A stretch of 59,717 bases of DNA from Roseibacillus sp. (lineage in GTDB: Bacteria; Verrucomicrobiota; Verrucomicrobiia; Verrucomicrobiales; Akkermansiaceae), in assembly GCA_002709915.1 (NCBI GenBank), contig PARF01000054.1, positions 8,312-68,028 on the forward strand. The letters are read 5' to 3'. The translations under genes were made by a program, and so were the position numbers. The notes beneath the pieces were generated by a model, which worked only from the letters and a program-made list of their open reading frames with translations, had not been told where the DNA came from and searched no databases. This document shows, in pieces, positions 2,042 to 46,925 of the stretch (within the stretch, counting starts at the first letter, position 1; each line of letters begins with the position of its first letter).

Positions 2042-2085
2042 TATCGCGTTGCCTTTGGTGGTGCCTTGGTGCATATTCTTTGGAG

Positions 2086-3072
2086 ATGAGACGCTGGATC
2101 TGGAGATCTTTAGCCTGTCTGCTGAGCCTCCTGCTTTGCGATTGCAGAGGGACAGAGGGTCATGGGTCCGTGAAGCCACCTGATTCAGGTGCATACTCGA
2201 TCACGGTCACCACGGGGATGGTAGCCGACTTGGTCCGGCAGGTCGCTGGTGAGCGGGGCCGGGTTCATGGCATCATAGCGGAGGGGGTGGATCCTCACCT
2301 CTACGCCGCCACGACCAGTGACGTAAAAACCCTTCGAAATAGCGATGTGATTTTCTACAATGGGTTGAATCTTGAGGGGAGGTTAGCCGGAGTTCTGGAG
2401 AAAATGGCAGGCGTTAAACAAGTCTGTGCGGTCGCCGAGGCATTCGAGGGTGCTGAAGACTACACGATCAAGGATTCGAGCGATGAGATGGATCCCCACA
2501 TATGGATGGATGTAGCCGTCTGGATGAGAGCAGTGGGCGCGGTTTCCCAGACTCTAAGTAGCTATGATCCGCTATTCCAATCCCATTACCAGAAAAGGGC
2601 TGACGCCTACCTTGCGACCTTGGATAAGCTTGACGACTATGTAAGAGAGGTGGTGCAGACTATTCCTCCAGAACACCGGGTGCTCGTGACGGCTCATGAC
2701 GCCTTCGGGTATATGGCACGCGCATATGGAATAGAGGTCCGCGGTGTTCAGGGGTTAAGCACGGAGGCAAAGCCCGGACTGAGAGATATTGAGTTGCTGG
2801 TCGATTTCCTTGTCGAACGTGGAATTCCCGCGGTTTTTGTTGAAAGCTCGGTCTCTCGGAAGAGCGTAGAAGCTTTGGTTGAAGGAGCGAAAGCTCAGGG
2901 GCACGAGGTGGAGGTCGGAGGGCAACTGTTCTCAGATTCCATGGGGCCGGCGGGAAGCTATGAGGGGACTTACGTGGGTATGATTGACCATAACGTGAAT
3001 ACAATTGCCCGAGCACTTGGAGGAGTGGTCCCGAATGGGGGATTTCGCGAGTGGAGGGAGACAAGGCAGTGA
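2086..3072 (+). CDS. ytgA: Mn/Fe ABC transporter substrate-binding protein (YtgA/TroA/PsaA type)
   Basis: Cluster A-I solute-binding protein that captures a divalent metal outside the membrane for the importer encoded next to it. From the ATG at 2086 it has 328 residues. A Cys-rich hydrophobic leader (MRRWIWRSLACLLSLLLCDC) suggests a lipoprotein, though the lipobox is imperfect. The four expected ligands are visible: His71 in DPHLY, His138 in DPHIW, Glu253 in VFVESSV and Asp284 in LFSDSMG. The His-His-Glu-Asp set is that of Mn-type PsaA/MntC rather than the three-His Zn-type ZnuA. A TTG two codons upstream (2080) is an alternative start. It overlaps ytgB by 22 bases. Confidence 0.9.
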   Translation: MRRWIWRSLACLLSLLLCDCRGTEGHGSVKPPDSGAYSITVTTGMVADLVRQVAGERGRVHGIIAEGVDPHLYAATTSDVKTLRNSDVIFYNGLNLEGRLAGVLEKMAGVKQVCAVAEAFEGAEDYTIKDSSDEMDPHIWMDVAVWMRAVGAVSQTLSSYDPLFQSHYQKRADAYLATLDKLDDYVREVVQTIPPEHRVLVTAHDAFGYMARAYGIEVRGVQGLSTEAKPGLRDIELLVDFLVERGIPAVFVESSVSRKSVEALVEGAKAQGHEVEVGGQLFSDSMGPAGSYEGTYVGMIDHNVNTIARALGGVVPNGGFREWRETRQ

Positions 3073-3884
3073 AATCGTTTGTCGACGATCGAGACGTTCC
3101 CGCCTACGGGCGCCCAGAGCATCCGGGGAACATTCCACTATCGGTCCATGACCTCACCGTGGCCTACGGTCGTAAACCAGTAATCTGGGATGTGGAGTTG
3201 AACATCCCGGAGGGTAAGCTCGTAGGAATAATTGGGCCGAACGGTGCCGGAAAAAGTACGCTGCTCAAGGCCTGCCAGGACTTGGTGCCTAAAACTTCCG
3301 GGGAGGTGAAGATCTATGGTAAGCGCTACAGGAAGCGCCGGAAGATGGTAGGTTATGTCCCTCAGCGGGAGAGCGTTGACTGGGATTTTCCCGTGAGCGC
3401 GATGGATGTCGTGGCGATGGGGACTTATGGGACGCTGGGATGGTTTCGGAGGGTGGGAAAATTGCAGCGTGAAATCGCAAAGAAATGTCTAGAGCGAGTT
3501 GGAATTCTTCATTTGGCTGATCGTCAGATCAGTCAGCTTTCAGGAGGTCAGCAACAAAGGGTATTTCTGGCGCGTGCCCTGGCACAGGATGCGAGACTCT
3601 ACTTCATGGATGAGCCTTTTGCGGCGGTTGACGCCGCGACAGAGCAGGCAATCGTCAGCCTTCTCAGGGAGTTAAGCGATACGGGGAAAACCTGTCTGGT
3701 AGTGCATCATGATCTGGCCTCGGTGACTCAGTATTTTGACTGGTTGGTGCTTTTGAACATGCGGGTAGTGGCGTCGGGTCCGGCCGACGAGGTATTTACG
3801 CGAGAAAACCTGCAAAAGACCTATGGAGGAAAGCTGAGTCTACTTGATGACGTAGCGGACCGGTTGCGTAATGTTGGCACCTAA
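3051..3884 (+). CDS. ytgB: Metal ABC transporter ATP-binding protein (YtgB type)
   Basis: Cytoplasmic ATPase of the Mn/Fe importer. The 277-residue product has a single ABC domain with Walker A GPNGAGKST, Q-loop in GYVPQRESVDWDFP, signature LSGGQQQR, Walker B LYFMDEP and the switch His in VVHHDL. The GTG start at 3051 lies inside the end of ytgA, and the stop overlaps the ytgCR start by 14 bases, so the operon is tightly coupled. The first 30 residues are a non-conserved extension, so a start further downstream is possible. Confidence 0.92.
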   Translation: MEGDKAVKSFVDDRDVPAYGRPEHPGNIPLSVHDLTVAYGRKPVIWDVELNIPEGKLVGIIGPNGAGKSTLLKACQDLVPKTSGEVKIYGKRYRKRRKMVGYVPQRESVDWDFPVSAMDVVAMGTYGTLGWFRRVGKLQREIAKKCLERVGILHLADRQISQLSGGQQQRVFLARALAQDARLYFMDEPFAAVDAATEQAIVSLLRELSDTGKTCLVVHHDLASVTQYFDWLVLLNMRVVASGPADEVFTRENLQKTYGGKLSLLDDVADRLRNVGT

Positions 3885-5319
3885 GAGATCGAAGGGGATT
3901 TTCCTTCTGTTGCTTCTCGCGATCTTAACTCTCCTCGGAGGTGTCGCAGAAGCCACTTTGCCGACGGATGAAGGCAAAGCGGATGTGTGGAGAATCATTA
4001 CCCTCCAATCTTACAATTCCCGCCTCGTCACTCTATCAACAGCCCTCCTTGGAGTGACCTCTGGCTTAGTCGGTGTATTTTTGCTTTTGCGAAAACGCTC
4101 CCTGATGGGTGATGCGCTCTCCCATGCCACTTACCCCGGGATCGGGCTCGCATTTCTTATAATGACCTTTCTGGGGGGGGAGGGGAAATGGCTGCCAGGC
4201 CTCCTTTTGGGCGCATCCATAACCGGAGTGGTGGGCGTGATTCTGGTTTCAGCAATCAGGCACACTACCTTGCTCAAGGACGATGCAGCCATGGGTATCA
4301 TTCTGGGAGTTTTTTTTGGTGCGGGGGCAGCCATCATGAAAATGGTCAGCAATATTCCCGGGGCTGATGCGGCCGGAATGGACGGCTTTGTCTATGGAAC
4401 AGCCGCATCCCTGATATTTGGCGACTTCGTCCTTATTCTTGCTGTTACAGCATTCGTCTGCGGAGCTGCGATTCTTCTTATCAAGGAATTCACTCTGGTC
4501 TGCTTTGATGAGTCATTTGCAATTAGTCAGGGCTGGCCCGCGCTGCGCTTGGACCTGGTCATGCTTGCTCTGGTAACAGCGGTGACAGTGGTAGGGCTCC
4601 AGGCTGTCGGGTTGGTGTTAATCATCGCGTTCCTGATCATACCAGCAGCGGCAGCACGATTCTGGACTCATAAGCTGCATGTCATGCTTTGGCTCGCAGC
4701 CTCGATAGGTGGAGCTAGTGGATGGCTGGGATCGAGCCTCAGCTCTCTCCTCGTTGACCTTCCCACGGGGGCAGTCATCGTTCTGGTTGCAGCAACAATA
4801 TTCGTGTTAAGTATGCTGTTTGGTTTCGCGCGTGGAATTCTTCCGCGAGCTGTTCGTCAAACACGCCTTCGGCGTAAAGTTGGAAGGCAGCACCTGTTAC
4901 GAGCAATTTATGAAATTCTGGAAAGCGATCAGCCTGATACCGCTGAACCGGTTAGCAATCTTCCAATAGACCTCGAACTACTTGCTCTTCACCGGTCGTG
5001 GTCATCTGCGGAGCTTCAGCGTCTCCTGCGAAGGGCCCGGGGAGAGGATCACCTCGAGGATGAATTACCGGGAAAGGTGCGCCTATCAGAGTCAGGATTT
5101 GGAGAGGCAGCGCGCGTCACCAGAAATCACCGCCTCTGGGAGCTCTATCTTATCCGCTATGCAGACATAGCTCCTTCTCATGTCGATCGAGATGCCGATC
5201 TGGTTGAGCATGTTCTTGATGCTGACATTGTGCGTCAGCTTGAATTGGAGCTGCGCGGACAGCCCGTCAGGGTGTTCGTGCCGCCTAGCCCTCATCTGAT
5301 CAATCAGCCATCCGGGTAA
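3871..5319 (+). CDS. ytgC: Metal ABC transporter permease fused to a C-terminal DtxR-like repressor domain (YtgCR type)
   Basis: 482 residues, against about 280-310 for an ordinary permease of this family. Residues about 1-310 are a ZnuB/MntB-type permease with many hydrophobic segments and the family motif RSLMGDALSHATYPGIGLAFL. Residues about 345-482 resemble a DtxR/MntR repressor: a helix-wing region ending VRLSESGFGEAARV, then the metal/dimer domain NHRLWELYL (His near 419, Glu near 423) and DADLVEHVL (Glu-His near 445-446), the ligand pattern of that family. In Chlamydia trachomatis the equivalent YtgCR is cleaved to free an iron-dependent repressor, and the gene order matches. A run of eight G lies at 4173-4180. 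It ends 3 bases before ytgD. Confidence 0.9.
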   Translation: MLAPKRSKGIFLLLLLAILTLLGGVAEATLPTDEGKADVWRIITLQSYNSRLVTLSTALLGVTSGLVGVFLLLRKRSLMGDALSHATYPGIGLAFLIMTFLGGEGKWLPGLLLGASITGVVGVILVSAIRHTTLLKDDAAMGIILGVFFGAGAAIMKMVSNIPGADAAGMDGFVYGTAASLIFGDFVLILAVTAFVCGAAILLIKEFTLVCFDESFAISQGWPALRLDLVMLALVTAVTVVGLQAVGLVLIIAFLIIPAAAARFWTHKLHVMLWLAASIGGASGWLGSSLSSLLVDLPTGAVIVLVAATIFVLSMLFGFARGILPRAVRQTRLRRKVGRQHLLRAIYEILESDQPDTAEPVSNLPIDLELLALHRSWSSAELQRLLRRARGEDHLEDELPGKVRLSESGFGEAARVTRNHRLWELYLIRYADIAPSHVDRDADLVEHVLDADIVRQLELELRGQPVRVFVPPSPHLINQPSG

Positions 5320-5322
5320 ACA

Positions 5323-6255
5323 ATGGGATTCAACTGGGATAGCTTGGATACGTGGACGGTTGTGATTGCCGGGCTCAGTGCGGTGGCCGCCGCCTTGCCC
5401 GGATGCTTTCTGGTCCTTCGCCGGATGAGTATGATGGGCGACGCCATCAGTCATGCGATTCTTCCGGGGATCGCGATGGGTTTTCTGCTGACCCACACCC
5501 GTATCACGGTGGTGATGTTCATCGGGGCTGCATGTGCAGGACTGCTGACTGCTGCATTTACACAGTGCGTTAGTAAATATGGCAAAGTCGACCGGGGAGC
5601 TGCGATGGGCATTGTCTTCACTACCCTTTTCGCCATCGGCCTGATTCTTATCCGTCAGTCCGCGCAGCATGTGGAGCTGGATCCAGCCTGTGTTCTCTAC
5701 GGGGCGTTGGAGTATAGTGTGATTGACACGTGGCAGATTGGAGGGTCCGAAATCCCACGTGCAGTGGTAAGCATAGGGTCTGTAATGTGTATCAATATTA
5801 TCCTTATAATTTTTCTGTATAAAGAGTTGGCCGTTTCTTCCTTTGACCCTGCTCTGGCCGATACTCTCGGAATCAGCTCCGGGCTCATGCACTATGTTCT
5901 CATGATCATGGTGGCGGTCACCACTGTGGCCGCTTTCGAGGCCTTGGGTAGTATTATTGTGATCGCGATGCTGATCGTGCCACCGGCTACAGCACTCCTG
6001 CTCACTAGGAGACTCTCTTTTATGCTTATTTTAAGCGCAGGAATTGGGATGCTTTCGGCTTTCCTTGGGCATTTGGGGGCTGTGGCGATGCCGCCCGTAT
6101 TGGGGTTTCAACCAACGGTAAGCTCCGGAATGATGGCGGTCGCCGCTGGTGTTCTATTCGTGTGCGCTTGGTTCTTCTCGCCTTCCCAGGGGTTGTTGAT
6201 TCGTCTGGGAGAGAACAGAAGGCAATTATCCTCGCTTTCCGGTGGGGGCTCCTAA
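5323..6255 (+). CDS. ytgD: Metal ABC transporter permease (YtgD type)
   Basis: Second membrane subunit of the Mn/Fe importer, 310 residues, almost wholly hydrophobic with roughly eight or nine membrane segments. It carries the same RRMSMMGDAISHAILPGIAMGFL motif as ytgCR and a central AFEALGSIIVIAMLIVPPATALLL segment typical of ABC-3 permeases. It lacks the repressor domain, so only one of the two permeases carries the sensor. It starts 3 bases after ytgCR and ends the four-gene operon; no clear terminator follows. Confidence 0.93.
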   Translation: MGFNWDSLDTWTVVIAGLSAVAAALPGCFLVLRRMSMMGDAISHAILPGIAMGFLLTHTRITVVMFIGAACAGLLTAAFTQCVSKYGKVDRGAAMGIVFTTLFAIGLILIRQSAQHVELDPACVLYGALEYSVIDTWQIGGSEIPRAVVSIGSVMCINIILIIFLYKELAVSSFDPALADTLGISSGLMHYVLMIMVAVTTVAAFEALGSIIVIAMLIVPPATALLLTRRLSFMLILSAGIGMLSAFLGHLGAVAMPPVLGFQPTVSSGMMAVAAGVLFVCAWFFSPSQGLLIRLGENRRQLSSLSGGGS

Positions 6256-19956: not shown

Positions 19957-20919
19957 CTATGGACTTACAGTGTTCGTAGAGGAGCCTTGCCCAACAGCTT
20001 CGGAAAGGGAGGAAATGTTTTCCCGCATGACGCTCAGGAAATCCCCTTTCGCAGGTCGTGCTCCACACGGGTTCACCACGATATTGATTAATCCGGTCAT
20101 TTTGATCTTGGTAATGTTCTCCTCAGTGGGCGGCCCTTCCCAGATGAAATATTTCACCGCAGATTTTTCACTCTGAATCGCCGCGATCTCGCCTATTTCA
20201 AGGGTGCCAAGTTTCTGCGCGGGTTCCCAATGCAGGGCCTGGCCTGAGAGGTCATAAGCGCGTGTCCAATACTGGTATACAGGATGAGATAATACCAGAG
20301 TAGTGCCCCTAAGAGGAGCGGTCACGCTTTTCATCTGGCGGTCGAGGTCCCTTATGTCTTTGAGAAGGGTTACAAGTTTTCCGGAGATGGACTCCGCGTG
20401 CTCCGGGAATTGTTCGCGAAGAGCGTCCGCAGTCGAAGAAGCTTGTTTGCTGGCCAGTTCAAGATCAAGCCAGGTCGTTGATGCAAATCCGCCGTGCGTA
20501 TGACTCGTGGTTCCACCCTTGTGCGTGTGGCTGGTTCCTTCCTGTTGCTTGATAAAGCTGCCCTCGAAAGATGACGATGTTATGACGGTCGCTTCGTATG
20601 GAATGGTGCGACTCGAAGTCCACTTTGCGTAGTTGGCTCCGTTCAGAAGAATAAGGTCTGCTGCCTGAATGGCGCGTATTTGGTCGTCGGTTGGATTCCA
20701 GTAAGCTGGATCTACGTTTGGAGGAGTCTCAAACAGAATGTCTGCGAATTCCCCGGCTAGCCTTTTGGCAAAATAGGAAAGTGGGTAGTTGACGGCTGCG
20801 ATGGTAGGCCTGCGTTTCTCCGAGAAGGCCAGGTTCTCTCTCTTAGTAGAGGTCTCGCATGAGCTAATGAAAGCCGCGGCGACAAGGACGAAAAGGGCAG
20901 GAGAGGAGGTAAATTTCAT
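19957..20919 (-). CDS. ZnuA-like lipoprotein with a His-rich loop but missing canonical metal ligands
   Basis: 320 residues from the ATG at 20919, which gives a lipoprotein signal with lipobox ISSC (Cys21). The fold is the ZnuA/TroA type: PTIAAVNYPLSYFAKRLAG, ADLILLNGANYAKW, and a His-rich loop THKGGTTSHTHGG (His131, 133, 140, 142) as in ZnuA. The usual ligand sites are altered. DPHxY is DPAYW (Ala72), PHIW is TTW (148-150), and the late Asp site is NPCGARP. Only His212 (VLSHPVYQYW) remains of the classic set, with Glu261 nearby. It is the last gene of an operon with an FtsX-type ABC pair and lies 17 bases after the permease. It may sense or chaperone zinc rather than feed a ZnuB channel. Confidence 0.8.
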   Translation of the reverse strand: MKFTSSPALFVLVAAAFISSCETSTKRENLAFSEKRRPTIAAVNYPLSYFAKRLAGEFADILFETPPNVDPAYWNPTDDQIRAIQAADLILLNGANYAKWTSSRTIPYEATVITSSSFEGSFIKQQEGTSHTHKGGTTSHTHGGFASTTWLDLELASKQASSTADALREQFPEHAESISGKLVTLLKDIRDLDRQMKSVTAPLRGTTLVLSHPVYQYWTRAYDLSGQALHWEPAQKLGTLEIGEIAAIQSEKSAVKYFIWEGPPTEENITKIKMTGLINIVVNPCGARPAKGDFLSVMRENISSLSEAVGQGSSTNTVSP

Positions 20920-20936
20920 GGGCGGAATTCTCAAGG

Positions 20937-22121
20937 CTAACTAATCAACAGGGTGAGCAGGTCTGGCGCTGCTGCTTTGGTAAGGATGATGCCAATCTGG
21001 GCAATAGTGGTAGCCACAACGGCGATTATGATTACCTCGGACCCCTGCAAGCAAAGGATTGTCAGTTTCGTTGCGCCGATCTTTGCGTAAGTGCGCATTT
21101 CTCGCTCTCGAAGTCGAAAGGAGAGGAGAAAAACCATCAGGGCCAGAGTCAATGCAGCGATTCCGAGAAGGCTGAAGGCGACCAAAGCAAGACGCTGGGT
21201 TGCAAAAAGGGTATTGGCGAGGTGCTCGACCGCGGTGGCAGGGATGACGATTTGCTGAGGTTTTGCCGGATCTTGGTAGGCGGCAAGAGCGAGTGCTCGA
21301 TGCTTCTTATCAAACGGAGCAAGAATCACCGAGGAAAGTGGATATTTTCCGTAGTCTCCATGAAAGTGGAAATCTCCCAGATTGGCATCAGTGACCTCGT
21401 TGAATTCAACAACAGAGGCATTTGCGCGCAGGATGCGCCCTGCGGAGTTCCGGCGCGAGTCCACGATTTCAGATTGAGATAGTTTCTGGTGGCCGTGGGC
21501 GAGGCCCTCAATAATCCAAGCAGTTTTCAGGTCGACAAAGATCGCGTTATCATCAGGGGTTCTGTTTGGTGTGAGTATCCCAGTGATGCGCATTCGGAGA
21601 GGGTAGACCCCTGCTAGATCGAAAATGTTCTCAGGAGATGATGTTATAGTATCACCCGGTTTGAGGTCTTTGCTTCTGGCGAGGCGCGCTCCGATTACGC
21701 AATCCCCAAGGCGTGTCATCGACTGGCCGGTATCTATCGAGAGTGCGCGGAGTTTAAAATATTCTAATGAAGTGCCGACGATTGGAGAACTCCCCGACCG
21801 GAAGCGCGAATGAATTGGGATCGTTTTTCCCAGGTCCATTCGATTGAGGGCTTCATAAGAGGAATAGTTAAGAGGGGGTAGTTCCTGGGGTGTGAAATAG
21901 AGGGCGTTGAGCGTAAGATCTATCGAGCTTCCACGGGGGCCTATGAGAAGAGGGGTAGCCCTTGCTCTCGCGCTGAGAACTTCCTCGCTCCGGCTGATGA
22001 ACTCCTGCAGGGCGCGGGGAAAGTAGACTGTCAATGCAATGGTTCCGATTAGAAGCAGCGATCGAAAGGGACGATGCCGAAGTGCCCTCCAACTTAGATA
22101 TGCGATGCTTGTAATTCGCAT
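20937..22121 (-). CDS. FtsX/MacB-type ABC transporter permease
   Basis: 394 residues, four membrane segments in the MacB/LolC arrangement. One is near the N-terminus (SLLLIGTIALTVYFP) with a large extracytoplasmic domain after it. Three are at the C-terminus (LALVAFSLLGIAALTLALMVFLL, ILCLQGSEVIIIAVVATTIAQIGIIL, and a short last one). The stretch ARATPLLIGPRGSSIDLTLNALYF is a recognisable family motif of a subgroup of these permeases. Such proteins do not form a substrate channel. They move periplasmic domains by mechanotransmission. It begins 5 bases after the ATPase gene. Confidence 0.88.
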   Translation of the reverse strand: MRITSIAYLSWRALRHRPFRSLLLIGTIALTVYFPRALQEFISRSEEVLSARARATPLLIGPRGSSIDLTLNALYFTPQELPPLNYSSYEALNRMDLGKTIPIHSRFRSGSSPIVGTSLEYFKLRALSIDTGQSMTRLGDCVIGARLARSKDLKPGDTITSSPENIFDLAGVYPLRMRITGILTPNRTPDDNAIFVDLKTAWIIEGLAHGHQKLSQSEIVDSRRNSAGRILRANASVVEFNEVTDANLGDFHFHGDYGKYPLSSVILAPFDKKHRALALAAYQDPAKPQQIVIPATAVEHLANTLFATQRLALVAFSLLGIAALTLALMVFLLSFRLREREMRTYAKIGATKLTILCLQGSEVIIIAVVATTIAQIGIILTKAAAPDLLTLLIS

Positions 22122-22126
22122 GCTGT

Positions 22127-22801
22127 CTATTTCTGGCCGTGTTGGTTGAGTTCCTCGAACTGAATGACAGCATCGAAGGCATGTACGAGTTCGAGGTCAT
22201 GTGTAACCACTAGCAGTCCCTGTCTGTGCTCTTTCGCACTAGAATGCATCAAATCAAGGGTTTTCTTCTTATTCACGGGGTCGAGATTTCCCGTGGGCTC
22301 ATCGGCCAACAGTAGTCTCGGGCGCGCGCTGAGTGCTCTGCAGATGGCTGCTCGCTGTCTTTCGCCATGAGAAAGGCTTTCAGGGAGCGTGTTCCAGTAA
22401 TTGAGAATGCCAAAATCGCGGGCAAGACCTTTGGCCCGATCTTCTACGATCGCGTGGTCTTTTCGTATGCCGAGATAGGACGGAAGAAGAACGTTTTCGC
22501 CAACGGACAGGTGCTCAACCAATTCGAATTCCTGGAAGATGAGCCCAATTTCCGAAAGCCTGAATTCAGCCGAAGCCGCCCGACTAAGTGAAGTAATCTC
22601 GGTTGTATCGATGCAGATGCTCCCTGCAGAGGGATGGAGGATTCCCGCGACCAGATTGAGAAAGGTTGATTTGCCGCAACCACTTGGTCCTACCAGAGCG
22701 ATAGTCTGGCCTTCTGCGCACTCAAATTTAGGGATGAGCATCTGATAGCCATTTCTGGAATATGAAAACTCGAGAGAGTGTATGCTGAGCAGGGTATTCA
22801 C
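22127..22801 (-). CDS. ABC transporter ATP-binding protein (LolD/MacB type)
   Basis: 224 residues, one ABC domain: Walker A GPSGCGKST, Q-loop LIFQEFELVEHLSVGENVLLP, signature LSHGERQRAAICRALSARP (LSHGE rather than LSGGE), Walker B LLLADEPTGNLDPVNKK, and switch His in VVTHDLELV. The QEFxLxxxLxVxEN and EPTGNLD motifs place it with LolD/MacB ATPases, matching the FtsX-like permease next to it. The GTG start (22801) overlaps the stop of the upstream 424-residue gene as GTGA. Confidence 0.93.
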   Translation of the reverse strand: MNTLLSIHSLEFSYSRNGYQMLIPKFECAEGQTIALVGPSGCGKSTFLNLVAGILHPSAGSICIDTTEITSLSRAASAEFRLSEIGLIFQEFELVEHLSVGENVLLPSYLGIRKDHAIVEDRAKGLARDFGILNYWNTLPESLSHGERQRAAICRALSARPRLLLADEPTGNLDPVNKKKTLDLMHSSAKEHRQGLLVVTHDLELVHAFDAVIQFEELNQHGQK

Positions 22802-42735: not shown

Positions 42736-43731
42736 ATGAAAAAACGTTTTCTCACAGATCCTTGTTTCGCGTTATGGTCGCTTACCTGTTGTTTGGTTGC
42801 TGCTGCGGAAGAGCCCAAAGAGAGTCGACAGTATTTTAATGAGAAAGAAGTGCCGGAGAATCTCCGTGACCTCCGTAGCATTCAGAGAGCATTGCAGGAA
42901 ACTCTGCCTCAGGCACGGGCTGCTACAGTGTCCATTGATCTCGGAGGGGGATCGGGTAGTGGAGTGATTGTATCTGAAAAAGGGTTAGTGCTTACAGCTG
43001 CTCATGTGAGTGCGGGCGTGGGGAAGGACATGACGGTGATCATGGAAGACGGAACGAAGCATAAAGCGACTTCTCTTGGGCTGGTAGCCTCAACGGATGC
43101 GGCCATGGTTCAAATTAGCGAGGAAGGGGTTTTTCCCTTTGTGGAACTTGATCGTGGGGATTCAGCTTCACTTGGTGACTGGGTCTACGCTCTCGGGCAT
43201 TCAGGGGGCTTTGAAAAAGAGAGAGGGGTAGGAGTTCGGATTGGCCGGCTTGTAAGAATGGCGGAGCAAACCATCAACTCAGACTGCAATTTAATCGGTG
43301 GCGATTCAGGAGGACCTCTTTTCAATATGAAGGGGAGACTGATCGGAATTCATAGTCGGGTGGGGGCGAGCCTTGAGCAGAATATGCATGTGCCTTTGCG
43401 CGAATTTCTTAAGAATTGGGATGCGATGCTGGATAAAAAATTTGTGGGGAAGGGGCCGTTTGCTCAGGAAGCAGTAGCGTTTCTGGGAGTGGCCACGGAG
43501 GACCGAAAGGAAGGTGGTGTTGTGATTAAAGAGGTTGGAGACAAAACTCCTGCCGCTGACGCCGGCTTGCAGAAGGGCGATGTCATTCTAAGTTTGAACG
43601 GGGACGAATTGGACGGAGCGAAGCAGTTCTCAGCTTCGCTCGAAGGCTTTAAGCCTGGTCAGAAAGTGAAACTTAAGATCCTTAGAGATGATGAAGAAAA
43701 GGAAATTGAAGTTGAGTTGGGTAAAAAATAG
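42736..43731 (+). CDS. HtrA-like serine protease with C-terminal PDZ domain
   Basis: 331 residues, exported (MKKRFLTDPCFALWSLTCCLVAAAEE). The trypsin-like domain has a complete triad: His90 in LTAAHV, Asp121 in STDAAMVQ, Ser191 in GGDSGGPLF. One PDZ domain occupies about 245-331 (GVVIKEVGDKTPAADAGLQKGDVILSLNGDEL). HtrA proteases degrade or refold damaged envelope proteins. It has one PDZ rather than the two of DegP, like DegS. The downstream pseudoprotease overlaps it by 44 bases, so the two are made together. Confidence 0.92.
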   Translation: MKKRFLTDPCFALWSLTCCLVAAAEEPKESRQYFNEKEVPENLRDLRSIQRALQETLPQARAATVSIDLGGGSGSGVIVSEKGLVLTAAHVSAGVGKDMTVIMEDGTKHKATSLGLVASTDAAMVQISEEGVFPFVELDRGDSASLGDWVYALGHSGGFEKERGVGVRIGRLVRMAEQTINSDCNLIGGDSGGPLFNMKGRLIGIHSRVGASLEQNMHVPLREFLKNWDAMLDKKFVGKGPFAQEAVAFLGVATEDRKEGGVVIKEVGDKTPAADAGLQKGDVILSLNGDELDGAKQFSASLEGFKPGQKVKLKILRDDEEKEIEVELGKK

Positions 43732-44749
43732 GGCTGTTTCGATTCTCCTTTCACTGGTTGTCTCTACAGCGTCCGCCCAGCAGCAGGTTGGGCAGCTCGA
43801 GGGAGAATTCCGTCTCAACGGTAAGGAAACATGGAAGGCGTTCGATCCTGTTCGAGAAGTGCTGCAAGAAAGCAGTGCGGTGGTCTACGATGGATGGAAG
43901 TCAATCGCTTATGGAGTAATCGTCAGCTCTGACGGGTACATGGTTACAAAGGCCAGCGAGATTGAAGGGGTAGAAGAACTCAGTGTCAGGGTTAACCGAG
44001 AGCATTTCAAGCAGGTGACGGTGGTATCCTCAATCGTCGAATGGGATGTGGCACTCCTCAAGGTAGAGGCGCAGGGGCTACCAGTTATCGACTGGGCGGA
44101 GTCTGAGCCTTCTCATGGCACGTGGGTCATTAGCAACGGATCAACAACTCGCCGTGACCGCAGGCTCCGGGTTGGGATCATCAGTGCGAATGCTCGGATG
44201 GTTGGTGAGGGAAGAGCTCCAGTGGTGCTCGGTGTAACGCTGGACACTAGTGGAGAAGAGAAAGGTCTTTCGGTAAAGGAAGTGCAGGAGGATTCCGGTG
44301 CTGGTAAGGCCGGCATAAAAAGTGGCGATGTGATTCTGGAAATGGAGGGTCGCGCAGTAAGCAGCATGGAGGACCTGAAGGAGCTGCTTGGCAGTAAGGA
44401 GCCGGGTGACAGGATCCAACTGAAGTTAAAACGAAAGGGAGAAGATTTAGAGTTGGAAGTAGAATTAAAGAGAAGGGAGAGCGTTTTCGAGGAGAAGAAG
44501 ACCAGGAATGATGCGATGAGTGGGCGGTTTTCTAAAAGGAGGAGTGATTTCCCGAGGGTCCTACAAACAGATCTGCCGCTTTCGGTTCGCAGCGTAGGTG
44601 GTCCTCTCCTCAATTTGGAAGGGCAATGCGTGGGAATGAATATCGCGCGTGCGAATCGTTGTGAGACTTATGCGATTCCAGCCAAGGAACTTCGAGAAAT
44701 CGTCGCGGCTCTTACTGATGAAGAGAAGCTTGGGGGAGCTGCGCAGTAG
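43688..44749 (+). CDS. Pseudoprotease of the HtrA type with the PDZ domain inserted inside the protease fold
   Basis: 353 residues, exported (signal peptide near 12-30, cleaved after ASA). Aligned by eye with the upstream protease, the catalytic His is Ser90 (VTKAS for LTAAH), the Asp is kept (Asp120 in EWDVALLK) and the Ser is Val303 (SVGGPL for DSGGPL). It is therefore predicted inactive. The PDZ (about 175-262, VKEVQEDSGAGKAGIKSGDVILEMEG) comes before the SVGGPLLNLEGQCVGMNIARA loop, whereas in the upstream gene it comes after. The PDZ therefore sits within the second barrel. A regulator or chaperone subunit of the upstream protease is a reasonable inference. Confidence 0.85.
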   Translation: MMKKRKLKLSWVKNRAVSILLSLVVSTASAQQQVGQLEGEFRLNGKETWKAFDPVREVLQESSAVVYDGWKSIAYGVIVSSDGYMVTKASEIEGVEELSVRVNREHFKQVTVVSSIVEWDVALLKVEAQGLPVIDWAESEPSHGTWVISNGSTTRRDRRLRVGIISANARMVGEGRAPVVLGVTLDTSGEEKGLSVKEVQEDSGAGKAGIKSGDVILEMEGRAVSSMEDLKELLGSKEPGDRIQLKLKRKGEDLELEVELKRRESVFEEKKTRNDAMSGRFSKRRSDFPRVLQTDLPLSVRSVGGPLLNLEGQCVGMNIARANRCETYAIPAKELREIVAALTDEEKLGGAAQ

Positions 44750-44787: not shown

Positions 44788-44829
44788 TCGGGAAGCTGAC
44801 TACTTGTCTTCGAAGCTCTGGTTCGGAAT

Positions 44830-45090
44830 TCAGAATTTGGCAAGAAGCTTCCGGGCCTTGCGCACCGTGGCCTGGCTGAGCTTGTTGTCTACCCGCCGGG
44901 AATTGTCAACAAGTTGCACCAGCTCTGCGAGACTGGCTTCAGCTGCTGCCAGCGACTTCTTGGAGCTTCCGTATTTTTTGTCGCTGTAATATTTTGTGAA
45001 GGTAGTGCCAGCTCTACTCAGGCAGAGGCGCCAGCCTTGGAAAGCGGTAGTCTCATAAGTGAAGCGGGTGAGGTTGCGTTTCGATTTCAT
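44830..45090 (-). CDS. Small basic AP2-like domain protein
   Basis: 86 residues, pI clearly basic, no signal peptide. The central segment FQGWRLCLSRAGTTFTKYYSDKKYGSSKKSLAAAEASLAELV has the pattern of AP2-like DNA-binding modules: three strands with the aromatic/basic GWRxxxxRxGxxFxKYxSDxKYG, then an amphipathic helix. The C-terminal tail SQATVRKARKLLAKF is basic. In bacteria such modules occur in phage and mobile-element proteins and as stand-alone small proteins. The assignment is by pattern only. It is divergent from rpoA. Confidence 0.65.
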   Translation of the reverse strand: MKSKRNLTRFTYETTAFQGWRLCLSRAGTTFTKYYSDKKYGSSKKSLAAAEASLAELVQLVDNSRRVDNKLSQATVRKARKLLAKF

Positions 45091-45217
45091 GTCGCTGGCA
45101 GGCGGTACGATATGCCTTTATGCAAGGGACAATCCAATACAAAAGTAACTGGATTTGTTAGATGGAGGCCAAGAGGTTTTCGAATGAGAAGGCGCTGTAA
45201 TTTAAGGTTGCATTAGC

Positions 45218-45310
45218 AGGGGAGATCCCCTTTAGTCCCCGGCCGCGAGAGTTCATAATCGCCGTAGGTCCTCTGGGCAGTCAAAAGTTTGGCTGGCCTC
45301 TCGTCAGAGG
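45218..45310 (+). promoter_or_regulatory. rpoA leader hairpins
   Basis: Two small hairpins lie in the 244-base gap before rpoA: AGGGG-AGAT-CCCCT (45218-45231) and CCTCT-CGTC-AGAGG (45297-45310). The second ends 24 bases before the rpoA start, where it could affect ribosome access. In many bacteria this operon is regulated by S4. The S4 gene is not adjacent here and the hairpins are too simple to identify. Confidence 0.3.
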
Positions 45311-45334
45311 GAAACCCGGCAACCCCATATTACA

Positions 45335-46453
45335 ATGTCTGACGCATCCATTGCTGAAAACGAAAGTGTGAGTGAGCCAATTAGGCTCGATCGGTTTGAA
45401 GTTCCAAACCGACTGATTAAGAACGAGGAGACTGCCACCGAGTCCTACGCGCAGTTTGTAGCCGAGCCCTTCGAGCGTGGGTTTGGACATACCGTGGGAA
45501 ATTCAATAAGGCGCGTGCTTCTGTCCTCTCTGGAAGGAGCGGCAATTACCTCGGTTCGAATTGCCGGTGTTCAGCATGAGTTTTCAACTCTGCCTGGAGT
45601 CGTTGAAGATGTCACAGACATCGTGCTGAATCTAAAGAAGGTCAAGTTTCGTCACCACGACAAGGAGCCCCGAGTTCTTTCCATTAAGATTGAGAAAGCT
45701 GGGGTGGTCACGGCAGGAGATATTGACGACGATAACATCTATGAAGTGATCAACAAAGACCAGGTGATTTGTACCTTGGATCGCTCAGTGAAGTTCGACT
45801 GCGAGTTTGAAGTTCAGGTGGGAAGGGGATTCCGAACAGGAGACGAAAATAAAAGGGAGGAAATGCCGATCGGAGTTATTGCGATTGATTCGATTTTCTC
45901 CCCGGTCACTCGCGTCAAGTATGCGGTGGAAGATACTAGGGTTGGGCAGATGACGGACTTCGACAAAATCATCTTTGATGTGTGGACTGACGGGCGCATC
46001 GAGCCCCACGAAGCACTGCTTCACGCCTCGGCAATCCTGCGCCACCACCTTGATGTGTTCGTCAACTACGATGATGACGCAGTCGAGTTCGAGGAAGCCC
46101 CGGCCGAGCAGAGCGAAGAGAATGCCGCGCTGAAGAAGCTTCTAAACATGAGTGTCAATGAGATTGAACTCTCAGTGAGGGCTGCAAACTGCCTCAACAA
46201 CGCCAACATTACCTCCGTCGGACAGCTTGCAATGAAAACGGAGGCCGAAATGCTCAAGTATCGCAACTTTGGTAAGAAGTCTCTGAACGAGATTAAAGAT
46301 AAGTTGTCAGAGCTTGGGCTCAGCCTCGGCATGACATTTGATCCATCGCTTCTCAGCGGGCCAATGCCATCAGTTGCAGCACCGCGTCTCGGTGCCGAGG
46401 ATGAGGCTCCTGTCGGACTGGCAGATCTCATCGCGCAGAACATCGACGAATAA
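45335..46453 (+). CDS. rpoA: DNA-directed RNA polymerase alpha subunit
   Basis: 372 residues. The N-terminal dimerisation domain has [59 protein letters not shown], near-universal in alpha. The C-terminal domain has the helix-hairpin-helix sequence [46 protein letters not shown], which contacts UP elements and activators. A C-terminal tail of about 35 residues rich in Ala/Pro follows. It forms a pair with rplQ, without the rpsM-rpsK-rpsD genes that usually precede it. Confidence 0.98.
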
Positions 46454-46472
46454 CTACCAGACTAAACCAGTC

Positions 46473-46898
46473 ATGAGGCATCGAAAGAAAACCGGAAAAC
46501 TCCAGCGCGACGCGAGCCAAAGAAAAGCTCTCCTCTCGGGGTTGGCATGTGCTTTGATCCGAGAGCGAAAAATTCGAACAACTCTTGCGAGGGCAAAAGC
46601 TCTTCGTCCCGTTGCGGAGAAACTTGTTACCCTCGGTAAGCGCGGGGATGTTCATGCGCGTAGACAGGCAGTAGCTTTTTTGCGGCATAAAGACATCGTG
46701 AGAACTCTTTTTGATGTTGTTGCGCATGCATGTGCCGAGCGTCAGGGAGGTTATTGCCGAATCACCAAGCTAGGGCCTCGATTTTCGGATGCCGCTCCTA
46801 TGGCCATCATAGAGTGGGTAGATCTGGCTGTTGAGGCTGGCTCGGAAGAAGACGAAGAGCTAGAGGAAGTGGCTGAGACCACAGCCTCTGATTCATAG
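46473..46898 (+). CDS. rplQ: 50S ribosomal protein L17
   Basis: 141 residues from the ATG at 46473, 19 bases after rpoA. The frame is open upstream but this start gives the canonical [21 protein letters not shown]. The basic core ([32 protein letters not shown]) and [23 protein letters not shown] are diagnostic of L17. An acidic C-terminal tail ([17 protein letters not shown]) is longer than in most homologues. A terminator follows. Confidence 0.98.
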
Positions 46899-46925
46899 AT
46901 CGTCTGGTTGCACAAAAATTCTAGG

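Follow-up and report, generated by a model that had tools for sequence, protein, structure and literature searches.

Background

HtrA proteases are homo-oligomers in which every subunit carries out sensing (through the PDZ domain), signalling (through loop L3) and catalysis, and in the canonical enzymes activation spreads from one subunit to the next through loop L3. A PDZ within the catalytic chain occurs in the S41 C-terminal processing peptidases and in the RseP-type site-2 proteases. These share with the protein described here the placement of the PDZ within the chain, but their folds are unrelated, they have no trypsin barrel and they are not dead. In the accessible portions of two surveys of prokaryotic S1-PDZ proteins, the PDZ is C-terminal (PMC2605481) and classification follows the Pfam order (PMC6411480).

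By analogy, the nearest precedent for our protein is MamO, an HtrA pseudoprotease that is required non-catalytically for MamE proteolysis. According to the accessible part of the report on this system (PMC4794232), no physical interaction between MamO and MamE was detected, and the activation of MamE required the TauE-like domain of MamO. The likeness to the locus presented here is that an HtrA-like pseudoprotease is encoded with an active HtrA. MamO differs in retaining His and Asp, in having Thr for Ser, in its two-His metal binding and in its C-terminal TauE-like domain, as given in that part of the report; an inserted PDZ, present in our protein, is absent from the same description. A mechanistic analogy only, the fold and the reaction being unrelated, is offered by the prozyme of trypanosomes, an inactive paralogue of AdoMetDC that switches on the active enzyme by forming a heterodimer with it (PMC5201418, in the portion accessible). 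In the open-licence literature searched we found no description of the pair reported here, nor of any trypsin fold that is interrupted by a PDZ.

The gene pair and its relation to the HtrA family

The window, by which we mean the whole stretch of 59,717 nucleotides of Roseibacillus sp. DNA that was analysed, contains an active protease gene and a pseudoprotease gene that lie head to tail, protease first (Table 1). The first product has the characters of an HtrA/Deg protease, namely a trypsin-like domain, the triad and a C-terminal PDZ, and in the Pfam search its whole Trypsin_2 domain precedes PDZ_2. The second product resembles the HtrA/Deg proteins (DegP, DegQ, DegS, AlgW, HTRA1) in having a trypsin-like barrel (seen by Pfam, phmmer, model and superposition), a PDZ and the L3 Arg, and the N termini of both proteins look exported when read by eye. 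Unlike them, it carries its PDZ inside L3, between the two parts of the barrel and not C-terminal to the protease domain, has lost the catalytic His and Ser so that Asp alone of the His-Asp-Ser triad is retained, and is paired with a second, active HtrA. Against the NCBIfam Do/HtrA model TIGR02037 (cut-off 416.2) the pseudoprotease scored 134.4 bits and the active partner 156.7 bits, both below the cut-off, and the score of the pseudoprotease against the MamO model NF040961 was 41.8 bits with a cut-off of 800.

Table 1 Features of the gene pair, with nucleotide positions in the window
Feature	Position	Strand	Basis or description
Active HtrA-like serine protease, 331 aa	42736-43731	+	Signal-like N-terminal segment, trypsin-like domain, one C-terminal PDZ
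Trypsin_2 of active partner, aa 74-205	42955-43350	+	Pfam
Triad of active partner	His90 43003-43005; Asp121 43096-43098; Ser191 43306-43308	+	Invariant alignment columns
PDZ_2 of active partner, C-terminal, aa 249-328	43480-43719	+	Pfam
Gene overlap, 44 bases	43688-43731	+	ORF coordinates
PDZ-inserted HtrA-like pseudoprotease, 353 aa	43688-44749	+	Pfam, phmmer, alignment, model
Trypsin barrel, first part, about aa 50-172	43835-44203	+	Pfam, alignment, structure superposition
Pseudoprotease Ser90 at the His place; Asp120 retained	Ser90 43955-43957; Asp120 44045-44047	+	
Pseudoprotease Arg170, loop L3	44195-44197	+	
Inserted PDZ, aa 181-260	44228-44467	+	PDZ_2 E 2.6e-17; pLDDT blocks mostly 90-98
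PDZ-to-barrel linker, aa 261-287	44468-44548	+	Contains RNDxMSG and SxRR
Trypsin barrel, last part, about aa 288-347	44549-44728	+	Ser-loop equivalent
Pseudoprotease Val303 at the Ser place	44594-44596	+	

A PDZ inserted in the trypsin fold

The Pfam order of the pseudoprotease is the first part of Trypsin_2 at residues 76-170 (profile positions 3-108 of 144) followed by PDZ_2, and the segment after the PDZ (about 283-349) matched the Ser-loop strands of HtrA proteases in a phmmer search against solved structures. We modelled the protein with AlphaFold, using as input an alignment of 69 homologues (A4), and obtained a mean pLDDT of 90.1 and a pTM of 0.81. Residues 50..347 of the model superposed (VIA) on residues 53..276 of AlgW over 185 residues (Z 24.7, 2.1 A), and residues 36..345 on PDZ-deleted DegS over 187 residues (Z 24.3, 3.5 A). 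The unpaired residues of the model, about 113, correspond to the PDZ plus the linker, while the barrel is continuous in both the AlgW and DegS templates. Among the structure matches listed are HtrA chains with a continuous barrel, and the whole-protein Foldseek TM-score was at most 0.43 among the best 50 matches listed, a low value that is expected if the barrel and the PDZ sit unlike those of a canonical HtrA. The predicted structure thus confirms that the PDZ interrupts the trypsin fold.

The insertion point follows Arg170, which in the phmmer alignments pairs with the last residue, Arg, of the strand GI(V/I)SAxxR in DegP-like and DegQ chains. We take this residue to be the equivalent of DegP R187, DegS R178 and HTRA1 R302, an assignment that places the PDZ in loop L3. 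The L3 Arg column of the alignment holds Arg in 68 of the 69 pseudoproteases and in 97 of 102 active partners. A complementary loss of this residue in the active partners was considered and ruled out by the latter count; both partners retain it, and neither is made dependent on the other by lacking it.

Loss of the catalytic residues and selection

The alignment assigns Ser90 of the pseudoprotease to the place of the catalytic His and Val303 to that of the Ser, with Asp120 retained. Over the 69 homologues, the His place is occupied by S (66), V (1), E (1) and T (1), the Asp place by D (68) and N (1), and the Ser place by V (19), C (18), M (15), I (6), T (5), A (4), S (1) and L (1). The single homologue with Ser at the Ser place (L086) has no His and is without the next Gly-Gly. 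A lysine two residues before Ser90, Lys88, is present in 64 of 69 sequences. In the active neighbour, His90, Asp121 and Ser191 (in GGDSGGPL) are invariant among the 4 aligned partners.

Nei-Gojobori estimates were made on close orthologues with the gene overlap excluded, and several dS values above 1 make them rough. The dN/dS of the pseudoprotease was 0.045-0.083 (8 of the 11 listed ortholog pairs computable, 3 saturated) and that of the active partner 0.063-0.117 (8 of 11 listed pairs computable). A dN/dS as low as the partner's, together with the conserved substitutions, indicates that the loss is itself conserved under a constraint like that on the partner, and low dN/dS combined with the same architecture across many genomes takes the observation beyond chance. 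These comparisons support the view that the pseudoprotease is probably inactive by conserved substitution and held under purifying selection.

An earlier note, made from the letters of the window, had described a protein with Ser for His, Asp retained and Val for Ser, in which a PDZ lies between the Asp strand and the Ser-loop equivalent, overlapping by 44 bases an active HtrA-like neighbour with a C-terminal PDZ. The residue assignments agree with the alignment of 69 homologues, the position of the PDZ is borne out by Pfam, phmmer and the superposed AlphaFold model, the overlap is seen in the bases shared by the two reading frames, and the description of the neighbour holds in its Pfam order and invariant triad. 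The note had named two outcomes that would speak against it, a PDZ outside the predicted protease fold and an intact set of catalytic residues, and neither was observed, the PDZ lying inside a predicted fold that matches AlgW (with the Z score given above) and the aligned triad not being intact.

Distribution of the pair

The genome from which the window comes (3.63 Mb) has three pairs of an active protease and a pseudoprotease. In the pair on contig C18 (L003) a full-length relative of the pseudoprotease is the second of two adjacent genes, and on contig C48 (L002) the pair is fused as a single 807-aa protein, an active HtrA forming its first half and the pseudoprotease its second. Four other HtrA-like genes that we read in this genome have GNSGG, and we saw no pseudoprotease partner for any of them. 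A scan of named contigs recovered six close orthologues from Roseibacillus and Akkermansiaceae metagenome assemblies and seven further matches, four of which were read (L015, L017, L020, L021) and resemble ordinary HtrAs.

The larger genome searches scored the best 7-15 candidates per genome, and the resulting counts are lower bounds. Matches were present in at least 56 of 60 genomes of the family (profile search, E<=1e-15), at least 100 of the 141 genomes sampled from the order and at least 51 of 286 genomes of the class (both 1e-30), at least 31 of 288 genomes of the phylum (narrower profile, 1e-25) and at least 3 of 148 genomes of another class. In one genus, the profile searches gave no match in nine or ten genomes of small size (2.2-2.7 Mb). 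Some carriers are complete genomes of 2.7-3.5 Mb that belong to a single genus within the same family; this genus is plausibly Akkermansia of the gut, where envelope proteases matter.

Pairing, fusion and partner architecture

The pairing count comprised 105 distinct pseudoprotease genes (L001-L003, L009-L014, L022-L112, L125-L142 and L144-L146); it leaves out the fetched loci L113-L124 and L147, as well as L004-L008 and L015-L021, which are other PDZ or ordinary HtrA matches. In 73 cases an ORF for a GDSGG-type HtrA lies directly upstream on the same strand, and 29 pseudoproteases are fused, 27 behind the active half and 2 in front of it; because the fused loci were partly chosen for their length, 29/105 is not to be read as a frequency. 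Altogether 102 of the 105 genes are linked or fused to an active HtrA and 3 have no active partner upstream. The pair that the earlier note suggested seeking in other Verrucomicrobiota does recur there. Of the three exceptions, one is an orphan, L081 (the same gene as L141), with no active HtrA ORF nearby, and the other two, L090 and L092, are two-module genes that lie immediately before a fused gene. Of the 73 separate pairs, 43 overlap, 12 of them by exactly 44 bases, and the largest gap is 107; the ORF starts were set mechanically, so that a few large overlaps are start-codon artefacts.

Twelve of the 73 separate active partners have no PDZ match (a Pfam search of two of them found none), and the active half of the fused protein L084 also has no PDZ. 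In such pairs the pseudoprotease carries the sole PDZ. These separate partners (L061-L071, L073) are 246-254 aa long and have the triad. In the active partner encoded by the minus-strand ORF 1-1740 of L146, the protease domain is followed by two PDZ-like matches.

The fused proteins at L002:106-2529, L083 and L102-L112 have a low-complexity charged linker and an invariant Cys at the Ser place of the pseudoprotease half (13 of 13), and many have a C-terminal helical tail. Reversed fusions, with the pseudoprotease first and the active protease after it, occur at L078/L086 and L125. At L090:1669-5480 and L092:1412-5332, a two-module gene of 557 or 574 aa without GDSGG is followed by a fused gene for the active protease and the pseudoprotease. 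A model of the natural fusion L002 had a pLDDT of 69.4 and a pTM of 0.55, values too weak to reveal an interface.

Shared history of the two partners

In a tree of the protease domains with the PDZ removed (28 pseudoproteases, 28 active partners and 5 ordinary HtrAs; a quick tree with some long branches), the pseudoproteases and the active partners formed two separate groups with SH-aLRT values of 99 and 100, and the mean identity between the two kinds is about 20%. Both results imply that the pairing is old, and they rule out a recent duplication of the neighbour. The description of the second gene in the earlier note as a domain-inserted dead copy is accordingly supported in so far as the protein is probably dead and carries an insertion, and not supported in making it a copy of its neighbour. 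Since each group lies on one side of a branch, the simplest reading of the tree is that the dead, PDZ-inserted form arose once.

The distance matrices of the two partners are correlated (r 0.855 over 61 pairs; mean 0.002 and maximum 0.233 in 2000 shuffles), a correlation that is partly expected from the common species history. For the paralogous pairs of the window, C18 and C48, both partners are nearest to the same loci, each within its own type. A quick tree of 61 pairs requires at least 7 changes in fusion state.

Proposed function and alternatives

The recurrence of the pair in many relatives, sometimes as a fusion, suggests that the pseudoprotease is a subunit dedicated to its partner and not the product of a broken gene. 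Our best reading is the one already suggested by the earlier note, a mixed HtrA complex in which this subunit has a regulatory role or delivers substrate, and it gains from the fusions, the correlated distances and the active partners without a PDZ. In its specific form, towards which we lean by a little, the two genes encode a two-component HtrA in which an obligate dead subunit with its PDZ in L3 detects ligand or substrate and modulates the active one. The first gene product would be the protease and the second a subunit without catalytic function that has retained the HtrA barrel and the L3 Arg. Both proteins, judging from their signal-like N termini, would be exported and may assemble as a mixed oligomer, in which the embedded PDZ would bind the C-termini of misfolded or signal proteins. 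Ligand binding might then shift L3 and so change, most likely raise, the activity of the active subunit next to it; alternatively, the PDZ may hold the substrate for that subunit. With a working L3 Arg and a PDZ set into L3, a dead subunit could transmit a signal with no cleavage of its own.

A two-component HtrA of this kind would be the second case of a dead-plus-live HtrA after MamO, far more widespread and with the PDZ in the allosteric loop. If the reading is true, a conserved pair that splits sensing from catalysis lets each step be tested separately, and the natural fusions are ready single-chain constructs. A broader generalisation, which we offer tentatively and would not yet bet on, is that heteromeric HtrAs are class-wide in the Verrucomicrobiota, with catalysis and ligand sensing divided, the active subunit deprived of its PDZ in some lineages, the PDZ of the dead subunit wired into L3 and the two repeatedly joined as a single two-headed chain; such a system would amount to a natural modular allosteric switch.

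The same division of labour could be had without allostery if the dead subunit were a substrate adaptor or tether whose PDZ holds unfolded or tagged C-termini near the active subunit. The PDZ is retained, Gly182 in its LGV segment being invariant in 69 of 69 pseudoproteases, and some active partners lack a PDZ. A simple tether, however, needs neither a PDZ placed inside the barrel nor the retained barrel core and L3 Arg, and we consider this explanation unlikely. Less likely again is a brake, in which mixed oligomers with the dead subunit are inactive, or the dead subunit fills the active site, until a ligand frees the protease. Adjacent or fused genes also fit such a brake, and co-translation through overlap or fusion suits stoichiometric inhibition, but the permanent 1:1 ratio that a fusion imposes suits a working unit at least equally.

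That the pseudoprotease has an unrelated function of its own, for example as a chaperone or as a MamO-like metal-binding protein, seems very improbable. MamO provides a known example of an HtrA domain put to independent, non-catalytic use, in the accessible part of the report (PMC4794232); the linkage or fusion of nearly all of the genes counted (102/105) to an active HtrA speaks against it here, and the 69 sequences have no His in any invariant or nearly invariant column and thus no conserved di-His site of the MamO type. It is scarcely credible that the protein has kept enzymatic activity through a reorganised active site built on Ser90, Lys88 and sometimes Cys, for although Ser90 and Lys88 are common (66/69 and 64/69) and Cys stands at the Ser place in 18/69 sequences and in 13/13 of one fused group, that group too is without His and the nucleophile is inconstant across the family (V, C, M, I, T or A), again with no His. 

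Genomic surroundings

Read by eye, the pair is preceded by a gene for a SAM-dependent methyltransferase and followed by rpoA and rplQ (window 44800-46900). The methyltransferase and rpoA are also present at the close orthologous loci that were read, and other genera have different neighbours. A conserved third gene of the pair was considered and rejected, the downstream neighbours varying among genera at the loci read. A scan for promoters and terminators gave signals that were not above those of shuffled sequences. Elsewhere in the window, positions 2080-6255 and 19957-22801 hold two putative metal ABC transport clusters, recognised by eye, that comprise a substrate-binding protein, an ATPase and permeases.
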